Positions 43,437-46,618 of a stretch of 64,000 bases of DNA are shown here, in pieces. The notes beneath the pieces were generated by a model, which had not been told where the DNA came from, did not search any database, and was given only the letters and a program-made list of their open reading frames with translations. Position 1 is the stretch's first letter. Each line of letters starts with the position of its first letter. The stretch lies in contig NZ_JAPWGM010000002.1 in NCBI RefSeq assembly GCF_027213715.1, positions 558,001 to 622,000 of the forward strand. The letters are read 5' to 3'. This DNA is from Pedobacter punctiformis. Its GTDB lineage: Bacteria; Bacteroidota; Bacteroidia; Sphingobacteriales; Sphingobacteriaceae. Both the position numbers and the translations under genes were made by a program.

Positions 43437-44534
43437 TTAATAGGCTTTGATCATAAAAACGTAATCCTGTAATTTTTCAATTTGTTTGGTCCGTTTTAAT
43501 CCCGCCAGCGAGCTTTTCCTGTTTACTGTAAGTTTCTTACCTAAAGAATCTTGTGGAATGGCCCTCATGGCTTCTAAAATATATTTTGATTTAATAGCAA
43601 AGGCAGCACCATCTGCTAAATTTTTCGCACTGATTACCCCAACAAGATTTCCGTTATTATCTAATAAAGGGCCACCACTATTACCCGGATTAACAGGGAT
43701 AGAAACCTGATATTGAGTAGTATCTCCTGTAAAACCATTTTTAGAGCTGATATAACCGTCTCCTAATACGGCATCATCTTTAGGATAACCTAAGGTATAC
43801 ACGTTCTCTCCTACTCCAGTTCCGTTTCTTTTAATGGTATAAGGTAAAGCGGATAAATTATCAAAGTTTTTATCGTTAATCTTCAAAATCGCAATGTCGT
43901 ACTGCGTATCTGAGTAAACTGTTTTTACTTTAAAAGAATCGCCTTTACTATTTTGGATATAAACTGAATCTGCCCCGTTAATAACATGCAGGTTGGTTAA
44001 AATATAGCCATTTGAAGAAATTGCAAAACCGGTACCGCCAAAATTACCCGGATTAACCGGATTTGGATTCTGATTGTTTTGAGGATGACTCGTTTTAATA
44101 TTTCTGATTAAGTTACTTTGCGATTTTTTGATATTATTCACTTCCAGGCGCATTTGTACTAATCGGTCACTTTGCTGACTGTTGTGCTGCAATGAATATA
44201 TGGAAACCAATGACAATAACACAAATGAAGCTGCAATAGAGATAGCTGCTTTATTTGTACGCCACATTTTAACAATGCGTGAAGGATGCGGTCTTAATTC
44301 TGAAGCTAATTTTTCAACATCAATTTCCGAATGAATACTATTTAACTGTTCCTTTAAACGCAGTTGAACAGCAAAATCTTTCATTGATTGTAAAAATACC
44401 TTGTGCGAAACCACTTTATGATCAACAGCAGCATCATTACGGCGCAGTTGTTCAAAAGCTTCAGTTTCTTGCGGGTTAAGTTTACCTAAAAGATAATCTT
44501 CAATAATTGCATCTAACTCTAAATCGTTTCTCAT
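43437..44534 (-). CDS. Anti-sigma-like, membrane-anchored trypsin/HtrA-type protease
   Basis: I chose the Met at 44534 (MRNDLELDAIIEDYLLGKLN), 8 bases after the sigma stop; a longer reading would overlap the sigma gene. The protein has 365 residues. Residues 1-95 are acidic-basic helical and resemble an anti-sigma/RskA-type N-terminus (IEDYLLGKLNPQETEAFEQL). One membrane helix lies at about 96-114. A linker and a trypsin-fold protease follow, with His183, Asp213 and Ser286 (NLHVIN, YDIAILKI, NPGNSGGPL). There is no PDZ domain, unlike HtrA/DegP. So one chain may both hold the sigma factor and sense or cleave misfolded periplasmic proteins. This joint role is inference; the triad and topology are seen. 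Confidence 0.85.
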   Translation of the reverse strand: MRNDLELDAIIEDYLLGKLNPQETEAFEQLRRNDAAVDHKVVSHKVFLQSMKDFAVQLRLKEQLNSIHSEIDVEKLASELRPHPSRIVKMWRTNKAAISIAASFVLLSLVSIYSLQHNSQQSDRLVQMRLEVNNIKKSQSNLIRNIKTSHPQNNQNPNPVNPGNFGGTGFAISSNGYILTNLHVINGADSVYIQNSKGDSFKVKTVYSDTQYDIAILKINDKNFDNLSALPYTIKRNGTGVGENVYTLGYPKDDAVLGDGYISSKNGFTGDTTQYQVSIPVNPGNSGGPLLDNNGNLVGVISAKNLADGAAFAIKSKYILEAMRAIPQDSLGKKLTVNRKSSLAGLKRTKQIEKLQDYVFMIKAY

Positions 44535-44542
44535 TTCAATTA

Positions 44543-45109
44543 TTATGGTTGAAAAAATATTTTCTTTAACCTTTGCAGGCATTTATATTTCTGTGTTTTT
44601 GCATTATCAGTATTGGTATAACCAAACTTTTCGCAAATATCCTGCATGGATAAATTTTGGATATAAAAATCCTGAATAATGGTTTTACAGGGTTCGCCAA
44701 GATGATCAAGTGCAGATTGCATTTTTACAAACTGTAAATCTTTTTCTTCGTGGTAATCTACATCTTCCTCTACAGCAAACACATCTTCATAATCTGTTAT
44801 ATTACCGGCTTTTTTACTATTCTGACTTAATTTCTTTAGCCAAATGCGCCTGCATACCGAATATATATATGTTTTAAGCTTGCTGCTAAGTTCAAAATTC
44901 CCTTCTTTAATTTTGTTATATAAAATAATTATAGCTTCCTGATAAACATCTTTTGCGTCATCTTCATTGCCATTATTATTGAGTATAAATTGCAAAATCA
45001 TTGCAAAATATCCTTTATATAACTTATTTAATATATCCTCTGAGTTATTTAGTATACCTAAAATAACCTCTCTATCTGTTGGAACTGAACTGTTTAAACT
45101 GTTATTCAC
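44543..45109 (-). CDS. ECF-type RNA polymerase sigma-70 factor
   Basis: A 188-residue two-domain sigma factor. Region 2 lies at about 25-95 (YQEAIIILYNKIKEG, KLKTYIYSVCRRIWLKKL), with an acidic linker, and region 4 at about 125-185 (LGEPCKTIIQDFYIQNLSMQ, DICEKFGYTNTDNAKTQKYK). ECF sigma factors switch on a small regulon when freed from an anti-sigma factor. The next gene downstream carries an anti-sigma-like domain. Two copies of the motif GGGTTACY-N13-GTATTAA lie upstream, which suggests autoregulation. The nearer copy is only 4 bases from this ATG. Confidence 0.9.
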   Translation of the reverse strand: MNNSLNSSVPTDREVILGILNNSEDILNKLYKGYFAMILQFILNNNGNEDDAKDVYQEAIIILYNKIKEGNFELSSKLKTYIYSVCRRIWLKKLSQNSKKAGNITDYEDVFAVEEDVDYHEEKDLQFVKMQSALDHLGEPCKTIIQDFYIQNLSMQDICEKFGYTNTDNAKTQKYKCLQRLKKIFFQP

Positions 45110-45112
45110 TAA

Positions 45113-45141
45113 TTAATACCTTTTTCTGTAAATAGTAACCC
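45113..45141 (-). promoter_or_regulatory. ECF-type bipartite motif 1 upstream of the sigma gene
   Basis: Minus-strand GGGTTACT, 13 bases, GGTATTAA. It matches the motif upstream of the four lipoprotein genes with exactly the same spacing. The -10-like half lies 4 bases before the sigma ATG, so a transcript from here would be leaderless or start inside the gene. Confidence 0.7.
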
Positions 45142-45177
45142 AATATTAGACAAAAATATTTACAGCTGCTATAATGC

Positions 45178-45206
45178 TTAATACAATACCTGCTAAACGG
45201 TAACCC
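45178..45206 (-). promoter_or_regulatory. ECF-type bipartite motif 2 upstream of the sigma gene
   Basis: Minus-strand GGGTTACC, 13 bases, TGTATTAA (one mismatch in the second half). A transcript from here would have a leader of about 60 bases before the sigma ATG, so this is the better candidate for the sigma promoter. Confidence 0.65.
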
Positions 45207-45250
45207 AAAATGCCTTGATAAAAATTATTTTTATTTTTTTTCGATTTATC

Positions 45251-45279
45251 GGGTTACCTTTTTACCTTTGCGGCATTAA
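45251..45279 (+). promoter_or_regulatory. ECF-type promoter of lipoprotein gene 1
   Basis: GGGTTACC (45251-45258), 13 bases, GGCATTAA (45272-45279), 36 bases before the ATG. The spacer begins TTTTTA as in the other three lipoprotein promoters; here it also contains TACCTTTG (45263-45270), a housekeeping-like -7 box. Confidence 0.8.
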
Positions 45280-45314
45280 TGGTAAATTAATTAATTACTT
45301 AAAAAAATTCAAAA

Positions 45315-45536
45315 ATGAAAAATGCATTCAAATTAGGCTTTTTAGCTTTAGCTTTATCTTTATCAGTTGTTGCTTGTAACTCAGAAAAAAAAGCAGAAGG
45401 TTCTGATACTACTTTAACTGATTCTTCAACTATCATTACTGATACTAACAAAGTTGATACTACAGTTAAAACTGATACTTCTAAAAAAGATACTACAGTT
45501 AAAACTACAACAACTACAACTGAAGTTAAACACTAG
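45315..45536 (+). CDS. Small Thr/Lys-rich lipoprotein, tandem copy 1
   Basis: A 73-residue protein with a lipoprotein signal ending VVAC (Cys21). The mature 53 residues are Thr, Lys, Asp and Ser only in large part, and hold two 11-residue repeats (TDTNKVDTTVK, TDTSKKDTTVK) and the tail TTTEVKH. It is probably anchored at the outer or inner membrane and disordered. Function is unknown. It is the first of four tandem copies, each with the same promoter type and its own terminator. Confidence 0.85.
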   Translation: MKNAFKLGFLALALSLSVVACNSEKKAEGSDTTLTDSSTIITDTNKVDTTVKTDTSKKDTTVKTTTTTTEVKH

Positions 45537-45554
45537 TCTGATTTTACTTTATAC

Positions 45555-45586
45555 AAAAAAGCCCCGATTTTATCAGGGCTTTTTTA
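45555..45586 (+). terminator. Terminator of lipoprotein copy 1
   Basis: AAAAAGCCCCGA pairs with TCAGGGCTTTTT (one mismatch) over a short loop, followed by T. Confidence 0.9.
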
Positions 45587-45613
45587 TTGCCATTTATTTT
45601 TTTTAAAATAAAT

Positions 45614-45642
45614 GGGTTACCTTTTTAAGATAGTGGTATTAA
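45614..45642 (+). promoter_or_regulatory. ECF-type promoter of lipoprotein gene 2
   Basis: GGGTTACC (45614-45621), 13 bases beginning TTTTTA, GGTATTAA (45635-45642), 34 bases before the ATG. Confidence 0.8.
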
Positions 45643-45675
45643 TAGGTAAATTAATTAATAAAAAAAATATCAATC

Positions 45676-45897
45676 ATGAAAAATGCATTCAAATTAGGCT
45701 TTTTAGCTTTAGCTTTATCTTTATCAGTTGTTGCTTGTAACTCAGAAAAAAAAGCAGAAGGTTCTGATACTACTTTAACTGATTCTTCAACTATCGTTAC
45801 TGATACTAACAAAGTTGACACTACAGTTAAAACTGATACTTCTAAAAAAGATACTACAGTTAAAACTACAACGACTACAACTGAAGTTAAACACTAG
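45676..45897 (+). CDS. Small Thr/Lys-rich lipoprotein, tandem copy 2
   Basis: A 73-residue protein identical to copy 1 except for one Ile to Val change in the mature part. The near-identity, also at DNA level, points to a recent duplication or gene conversion. The lipobox VVAC, the double TDT-type repeat and the TTTEVKH tail are kept. Confidence 0.85.
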   Translation: MKNAFKLGFLALALSLSVVACNSEKKAEGSDTTLTDSSTIVTDTNKVDTTVKTDTSKKDTTVKTTTTTTEVKH

Positions 45898-45915
45898 TTT
45901 AAACTTTACTTATAT

Positions 45916-45949
45916 AAAAAAGGTCCCGGTGAAAATCAGGACCTTTTTT
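45916..45949 (+). terminator. Terminator of lipoprotein copy 2
   Basis: AAAAAGGTCC pairs with GGACCTTTTT across a 12-base loop, then T-run. Confidence 0.9.
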
Positions 45950-45977
45950 ATTATATTTTATTTTTATTTAAAAAAAT

Positions 45978-46006
45978 GGGTTACCTTTTTAATTTTCTGG
46001 TATTAA
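45978..46006 (+). promoter_or_regulatory. ECF-type promoter of lipoprotein gene 3
   Basis: GGGTTACC (45978-45985), 13 bases beginning TTTTTA, GGTATTAA (45999-46006), 35 bases before the ATG. Confidence 0.8.
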
Positions 46007-46040
46007 GCAGTAAATTAATTAATTTAAAAAATACTCAAAC

Positions 46041-46262
46041 ATGAAAAATGCATTCAAATTAGGCTTCTTAGCTTTAGCTTTATCTTTATCAGTTGTTGCT
46101 TGTAATTCAGAAAACAAAGCTGGAGGATCTGACACAACTAAAACTGATTCTTCAACTATCGTTACTGATACTAACAAAGTTGATACTACAGTTAAAACTG
46201 ATACTTCTAAAAAAGACACTACTATTAAAACTACTACAACTACAACTGAAGTTAAACACTAG
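46041..46262 (+). CDS. Small Thr/Lys-rich lipoprotein, tandem copy 3
   Basis: A 73-residue member with a few changes from copies 1 and 2, mainly just after the lipobox (SENKAGGSDTTKTD) and DTTIK in the second repeat. Signal peptide, Cys21 lipobox and C-terminal TTTEVKH are conserved. Confidence 0.85.
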   Translation: MKNAFKLGFLALALSLSVVACNSENKAGGSDTTKTDSSTIVTDTNKVDTTVKTDTSKKDTTIKTTTTTTEVKH

Positions 46263-46278
46263 TTTAAACTTTATTTTT

Positions 46279-46312
46279 AAAAAAGTCCTGGTGAAAATCA
46301 GGACTTTTTTTT
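46279..46312 (+). terminator. Terminator of lipoprotein copy 3
   Basis: AAAAAGTCCTG pairs with CAGGACTTTTT over a short loop, followed by a run of T. Confidence 0.9.
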
Positions 46313-46324
46313 TGCCTAAAATAT

Positions 46325-46353
46325 TGGTTACCTTTTTATTGATCAGGTATTAA
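46325..46353 (+). promoter_or_regulatory. ECF-type promoter of lipoprotein gene 4
   Basis: TGGTTACC (46325-46332), 13 bases beginning TTTTTA, GGTATTAA (46346-46353), 38 bases before the ATG. The first base differs from the other copies. Confidence 0.75.
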
Positions 46354-46390: not shown

Positions 46391-46618
46391 ATGAAAAATG
46401 CATTCAAATCTGGCTTTTTAGCCTTAGCTTTATCTTTAACAATTGCAGCTTGCGGTGGTGGCACAGGAACCAATAATGGTGGTGCTGATTCTACTAAAAC
46501 AGATTCTTCAACAATCATTACAGATACCAATAAAGTTGATACGACGGTTAAAGTAGATACTTCTAAAAAAGATACTACGATTAAAACAACTACAACAAAA
46601 ACAGAAGTTAAACACTAG
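46391..46618 (+). CDS. Small Thr/Lys-rich lipoprotein, tandem copy 4 (most diverged)
   Basis: A 75-residue member. The signal and lipobox (IAAC) are kept, but the segment after Cys is Gly/Asn-rich (GGGTGTNNGGADSTKTDSST) and the second repeat reads VDTSKKDTTIK. The TEVKH end is conserved. It is the oldest-looking copy. Confidence 0.85.
   Translation: MKNAFKSGFLALALSLTIAACGGGTGTNNGGADSTKTDSSTIITDTNKVDTTVKVDTSKKDTTIKTTTTKTEVKH

Follow-up and report, generated by a model that had tools for sequence, protein, structure and literature searches.

The subject of this analysis is a locus of Pedobacter punctiformis (family Sphingobacteriaceae) at which a gene for an extracytoplasmic function (ECF) sigma factor, a gene for a putative anti-sigma factor fused to a protease and an array of four small lipoprotein genes lie side by side, and at which one two-box motif stands before the sigma gene as well as before the lipoprotein genes. 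The whole stretch of DNA that was analysed, here called the window, comprises 64,000 nucleotides (RefSeq assembly GCF_027213715.1, contig NZ_JAPWGM010000002.1, positions 558,001 to 622,000 of the forward strand), and coordinates refer to it throughout. The original prediction had taken this arrangement for a complete autoregulated regulon consisting of sigma factor, protease and lipoproteins.

Genes and promoter-like sites at the locus

The sigma gene (44543..45109 including the stop codon, minus strand) encodes 188 residues from a GTG, which is its only plausible start, and its product matches TIGR02937 over residues 27-183 with 74.4 bits (cut-off 42.9) and Pfam Sigma70_r2 with 29.2 bits (cut-off 24), which bears out its earlier identification as an ECF factor. 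More specifically, it has the make-up of group 4 (ECF) factors, with regions 2 and 4 only and a length of about 190 residues, and its closest relatives belong to named Pedobacter species.

On the same strand, and without a promoter of its own, follows a gene for 365 residues (43437..44534), whose ATG at 44534 stands 8 bases after the sigma stop codon. An ATG further upstream (44582) is not conserved, the homology among relatives begins at the Met of 44534, and in nearly all of them this start lies within a few bases of the sigma stop. The protein contains a trypsin-like domain with a His-Asp-Ser triad, as do the HtrA/DegS (S1C) proteases: Trypsin_2 is matched with 90.8 bits (cut-off 27.6; 1.7e-25), the triad H183/D213/S286 is invariant in 22 of 22 diverse members, and the best Foldseek hits of the protease model are DegS, DegQ and HtrA1, without their PDZ domain, in agreement with a profile search of solved structures. 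The C-terminal PDZ domain of the S1C group is absent (a Pfam search of the fusion protein found none, and the chain ends shortly after the protease fold), and the equivalog cut-offs for DegS, HhoA and MarP are not reached. The protease of the original prediction is thus retained as a DegS-like enzyme with an intact triad, but as one that is fused to an anti-sigma-like N-terminus, crosses the membrane with a single predicted helix and lacks PDZ. This helix, the only hydrophobic one in the protein, comprises residues 97-115 (44190..44246, minus strand), with a hydropathy peak of 2.1 in three diverse members. The 95 N-terminal residues are all-helical in the structure model and give weak but repeated matches to anti-sigma profiles (E about 0.001-0.005, and at best 0.0006-0.001, in 6-7 of 22 members); Foldseek and VIA-align searches with this domain alone found no meaningful match, and a profile search of solved structures returned nothing relevant to it. 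A location just downstream of a sigma gene together with a single membrane helix is characteristic of class I anti-sigma factors (ASDI), and from gene order, topology and the weak profile matches the domain is very likely an anti-sigma factor.

Four lipoprotein genes lie in tandem on the plus strand, the first three encoding 73 residues each (45315..45536, 45676..45897 and 46041..46262) and the fourth, more diverged, 75 residues (46391..46618). Computed over units of 261 bases, identity to the first unit, whose protein has the lipobox VVAC, is 94% for the second, 89% for the third and 67% for the fourth. With near-full model coverage, lipoproteins 1 and 4 score 46.9 and 40.5 bits against the PG1828-family profile (NF050142), which is below its cut-off of 50 bits; judged by their sequences, the lipoproteins are closely related to that family while staying below its curated line.

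When both strands were scanned for exact occurrences of GGGTTACY-N13-KGYATTAA, five matches were found in the window, compared to a mean of 0.00 in shuffled sequence. Two of these precede the sigma gene on the minus strand, namely a sigma-proximal site, P1 (GGGTTAC-N15-GTATTAA, 45113..45141, box GGGTTACT), whose -10 box ends 3 bases before the GTG, and a distal one, P2 (45178..45206, TGTATTAA), 68 bases 5′ of the GTG. The other three precede lipoprotein genes 1 (45251..45279, GGCATTAA, with the variant -10 box GCATTAA), 2 (45614..45642) and 3 (45978..46006) on the plus strand. On the same strand, a site with one mismatch, in its first base, precedes lipoprotein gene 4 (46325..46353, beginning TGGTTACC). 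All six sites are therefore located where the original prediction had placed them. That they share one motif holds for the letters GGTTAC ... TTT ... G.ATTAA, which are common to all of them, but the boxes are not identical letter for letter: besides the mismatched sixth site, three sites deviate by one letter from the consensus that headed the prediction. The spacer has the same length in all six, and the -10-like box ends 35, 33, 34 and 37 bases before the ATG of lipoprotein genes 1 to 4, in keeping with the 34-38 bases given earlier.

Each lipoprotein gene has its own site of this kind, and three of the four are followed by an intrinsic-terminator-like hairpin with a T run (inverted repeats on the plus strand at 45555..45585, with the arms AAAAAAGCCCCGAT and ATCAGGGCTTTTTT, at 45914..45951 and at 46279..46310), so that by appearance the genes form separate short transcription units. 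The gene next after the array, also on the plus strand, has adenylosuccinate lyase domains. A scan for sigma-70-type promoters yielded nothing informative, with fewer hits than in shuffles.

The motif across genomes

In the whole 4.12 Mb genome the exact pattern GGTTACN15GTATTAA occurs seven times, and five of these occurrences are at this locus. The slightly wider pattern GGTTACY-N14/15-GTATTAA gives seven sites in this genome versus none for the reversed control pattern, and 154 versus 7 when summed over 35 genomes of the genus. If two mismatches are allowed, the genome yields 200 hits versus 201 for the control, so that loose matches are noise and cannot be used for defining a regulon. A profile built without the window's sites places five sites of this locus at the top of the genome ranking (E 2e-7 to 1.6e-4), with that of lipoprotein gene 3 in first place (E 2e-7). 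Among 64 dissimilar sites from relatives, and outside the letters fixed by the search, G precedes GGTTAC in 89% and C follows it in 84%, after which comes T/A-T-T-T, whose three final T are conserved to 98, 91 and 86%, respectively. The refined consensus is GGGTTACC(T/A)TTT-N9-(G/T)GTATTAA, which the sigma factor is predicted to recognize with either N9 or N10.

Within the genus, 34 of 35 relatives have a sigma orthologue (77-94% identity), and the motif is present at all 29 of the relatives' loci that were fetched. The original prediction would have been given up had the motif been missing from the orthologous loci of related genomes; instead, each of the 96 non-redundant loci of Pedobacter and Mucilaginibacter that were read has P1, with the spacer N15, before its orthologous sigma gene. 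Roughly half of the relatives also show P2, there mostly with a spacer of 14 instead of 13 bases, so the statement that the spacer is always exactly 13 is correct for the six window sites but not for P2 of most relatives that possess it; nearly half of the relatives have P1 alone. All 79 wider loci that were tallied in these two genera contain one to four motif-bearing lipoprotein genes, mostly with the motif 30-48 bases before the ATG. Beyond the family, in other families of Bacteroidia in which the sigma factor is ~44-57% identical, the box pair (with GTATTAA, GAATTAA or GTATAAA) is kept before the sigma gene, the fused protease adjoins, and the motif usually also precedes a divergent lipoprotein gene of the MKN.FK or MKK type.

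The presence of the motif also follows that of the fusion protein. Across 36 genomes of the family, a profile match (E <=0.01) was found in 22 of the 22 that have the fusion protein and in one of the 14 in which no fusion was detected. This single exception is a genome of 60% completeness, whose two sites lie on one contig, 72 bases apart and in opposite orientation, which is the layout of the locus described here. A further genome, in 620 contigs, was considered as a natural loss of the sigma factor (no orthologue, no profile hit); it still has the motif before its DUF4349 gene, and it was not used as evidence.

The two occurrences away from the locus, which came out of the whole-genome search that the original prediction had called for, precede the genes for two proteins, one a lipoprotein with DUF4349 (C1:407566) and the other a DUF2459 protein (C1:683049), the latter with the site 34 bases from the ATG. 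A site stands before the DUF4349 gene in 22 and before the DUF2459 gene in 9 of the 35 genomes of the genus, and from this recurrence the two genes are read as conserved trans targets. Additional PG1828-like lipoprotein genes are likewise preceded by the motif in relatives. About nine other hits fall within long reading frames and are probably due to chance, their number being in line with the control count. Two further groups of genes carry the motif in relatives: at six loci from several Pedobacter genomes it directly precedes genes for small membrane proteins of ~100 residues that have no assigned family, and in three genomes it lies 21-24 bases before the ATG of a family of membrane proteins of ~450 residues that lack a Pfam match.

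The predicted regulon and competing explanations

It is highly probable that the sigma factor, the fused inhibitor-protease and the lipoproteins constitute an autoregulated ECF regulon that is transcribed from this motif. The motif is directional, has a near-fixed spacer and lies at promoter distance in all orthologous loci that were read, and it is kept in families with far more distant sigma factors, all of which argues for such a regulon; at the level of sequence, the sigma operon also shares its two-box promoter with the target genes, as expected of an ECF factor. This remains the best reading of the arrangement originally described, but the regulon would not be complete at the locus, with conserved trans targets elsewhere, and a role in envelope stress is likely judging from the targets. 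Several points weigh against it. The use of these promoters by this sigma factor is a prediction from sequence, the presence/absence test mostly counts sites within the locus itself and is therefore only partly independent, and the N-terminal domain is assigned as an anti-sigma factor by its place in the operon, by topology and by weak profile matches, its fold search having given no match. Without a PDZ domain, moreover, the peptide sensor of the DegS type is missing, and the stalk in which cleavage is proposed is variable among members.

In the proposed mechanism, the resting sigma factor would be kept at the inner membrane through the N-terminal domain of the fusion protein that shares its operon and whose other end would be a periplasmic serine protease of the DegS kind. 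Activated by an envelope signal, the protease domain would then cut its own stalk or that of a neighbour between membrane and protease (residues ~116-165), and intramembrane proteolysis would follow and free the sigma factor. Once freed, it would drive the lipoprotein array, a small number of distant envelope genes and its own operon, by which the inhibitor would be restored. That self-cleavage by the fused protease is the trigger is something we infer with slightly less than even confidence. A serious contender, although short of being probable, is a genuine regulon whose fusion protein does not cleave itself, in which the protease would only accompany the membrane anti-sigma factor as an envelope quality-control enzyme, the sigma factor being freed by a different site-1 protease. 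HtrA proteases are general quality-control enzymes, and the poorly conserved linker and the missing PDZ sensor fit this version, whereas the occurrence of the fusion in 108 of 121 genomes of the family (20 of 25 genera), as well as in other families, suggests that the two activities are coupled.

The position of P1 adds a point that was absent from the original reading, since with a promoter so close to the GTG there is no space for a 5′ leader on the sigma mRNA. The -10 box of P1 ends 3 bases before the start codon in 82 of the 96 loci, 2 bases in 13 and 16 bases in one; the start codon is GTG in every one of them, and in nearly all of them codons 2-25 offer no further start in the frame. An earlier start of the sigma gene is not possible in the window, nor in relatives that share its spacing, since the TAA of the -10 box is there a stop codon in the frame of the gene. 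The locus with 16 bases belongs to a Mucilaginibacter metagenome-assembled genome, in which the word TATTAA is repeated between the P1 -10 box and the GTG.

This geometry predicts a sigma mRNA with no leader or almost none, and synthesis of such an mRNA from P1 is likely. Codons 2-13 (45071..45106, minus strand) are almost frozen at synonymous sites, with an identity of 93-94% compared to 59% gene-wide among 61 diverse genes, and these frozen codons together with the start geometry fit a leaderless mRNA; folding of the 5′ end of the sigma RNA revealed no structure beyond that of shuffles. Towards the other end of the gene, codons 182-187 (44549-44566), just before the anti-sigma start, show 85% synonymous conservation, perhaps in connection with translational coupling. 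P1 would then give rise to a GUG-starting sigma mRNA without a leader and the lipoprotein promoters to mRNAs with ordinary leaders of ~25-40 bases, a difference which suggests that one promoter type may serve for making little sigma factor and much lipoprotein.

An unlikely alternative to this is that P1 serves for occlusion or feedback and that the sigma factor is translated solely from longer transcripts. If transcription began beyond the fourth base after the -10 box, P1 transcripts would indeed lose the GTG, and the upstream P2 that such a scheme could use often exists in Pedobacter. However, the many relatives with P1 alone contradict it, as do the distance of 2-3 bases between P1 and the GTG in 95 of 96 loci and the frozen codons, which are expected of a 5′ end that binds the ribosome; outside the family, the sigma start lies ~7-18 bases after the same box.

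It is very improbable that the motif is no sigma promoter at all and is instead bound by a separate DNA-binding regulator (for instance, a response regulator recognizing two half-sites). Such a regulator would account for some conservation around P1 beyond the core, and binding of the sigma factor to the motif is itself predicted. Yet the site is asymmetric and always oriented to the gene, its spacing of 13-14 bases resembles that of -35 and -10 boxes, its distance of 30-48 bases from the lipoprotein ATGs is that of a promoter, and it follows the sigma/anti-sigma pair across families; in the window no conserved regulator gene was seen between sigma gene and array.

Hardly credible at all is the notion that the lipoprotein genes are housekeeping genes of sigmaA whose common motif is a by-product of recent tandem duplication: the four units are indeed 67-94% alike over 261 bases and unit 1 holds a TAnnTTTG box, but the motif is also found on the opposite strand before the sigma gene, before unrelated trans genes and at the orthologous loci of other families, both boxes are fixed between sites while the spacer letters are mostly free, and TAnnTTTG occurs in just 6 of 238 GTATTAA sites. 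The box in question (TACCTTTG, 45263..45270, plus strand) lies in the spacer of promoter 1 and corresponds to the housekeeping -7 consensus TAnnTTTG (PMC7366714, PMC9723704). It is present in 41 of 46 sites of the GCATTAA type, compared to the six among GTATTAA sites (these counts include orthologues), and promoter 1 is probably a dual promoter, which would keep one lipoprotein copy always on.

Related systems and wider occurrence

The autoregulated ECF regulon proposed here has its closest working model, by analogy, in the sigmaE/RseA/DegS/RseP system of E. coli, with which it would share an ECF sigma factor, a membrane anti-sigma factor, a periplasmic serine protease of the DegS type, an autoregulated promoter and targets among envelope proteins. 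It differs in that inhibitor and protease are one polypeptide, PDZ is absent, the promoter is of the GGGTTACC/GTATTAA type and no RseB is seen adjoining; with one fused gene in place of separate genes for the anti-sigma factor and a PDZ protease, it is not an orthologous member of the sigmaE-RseA-DegS group. ECF regulons as such are well known. Those of the sigmaW/sigmaX/sigmaM type in Bacillus subtilis are autoregulated and have a GTA-type -10 box, as predicted here, but their -35 box, their shorter spacing and their anti-sigma factors and targets are different.

Within Bacteroidota, the SM6 promoters of Flavobacterium psychrophilum are an ECF-type class, one of which precedes an ECF sigma gene and that of its anti-sigma factor; the available portion of that report mentions no GGGTTACC box or lipoprotein array (PMC9723704). 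In Porphyromonas gingivalis, the consecutive locus numbers of SigH (PG1827) and PG1828 place an ECF sigma factor beside the founder of the PG1828 family, a lead according to which this pair may be the same module, and SigH is reported to act in oxidative stress (PMC5607195). Only 6% of Bacteroidota ECFs adjoin a class I anti-sigma domain (PMC7406223), according to a 2020 study, none of the ECF sigma factors of B. thetaiotaomicron had a promoter motif of this kind assigned to it (PMC7366714), and mRNAs without a normal leader amount to only ~4-6% in the phylum (PMC7366714, PMC9723704), for which a GUG start without a leader, as predicted here, is unusual. A literature search found neither a trypsin-fused anti-sigma factor nor this promoter, although the main ECF reclassification may hold a prior description, and likewise it did not find the class-wide conservation with tiny lipoproteins or the start-codon geometry.

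Few ECF promoters are known in Bacteroidota, and here a sigma factor would be defined jointly with the promoter, inhibitor and main target that belong to it, with a conservation that is wide enough for testing in several genera. Many families of Bacteroidia retain the arrangement, which looks like an old, little-studied switch in cell-envelope signalling. Rather tentatively, it may be seen as a class-wide system for envelope stress with three features: a single self-cleaving protein is at once sensor protease, site-1 protease and anti-sigma factor; a leaderless GUG sigma mRNA allows one promoter type to give weak sigma and strong lipoprotein output; and the main product is the tiny lipoproteins, which could feed back on the protease.

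Among the sequences collected, JASCOD010000002.1 bears the title 'Flavobacteriaceae bacterium PS02338' and encodes a sigma factor of 78% identity, which is as close as many Pedobacter sequences, so that the name looks misplaced.
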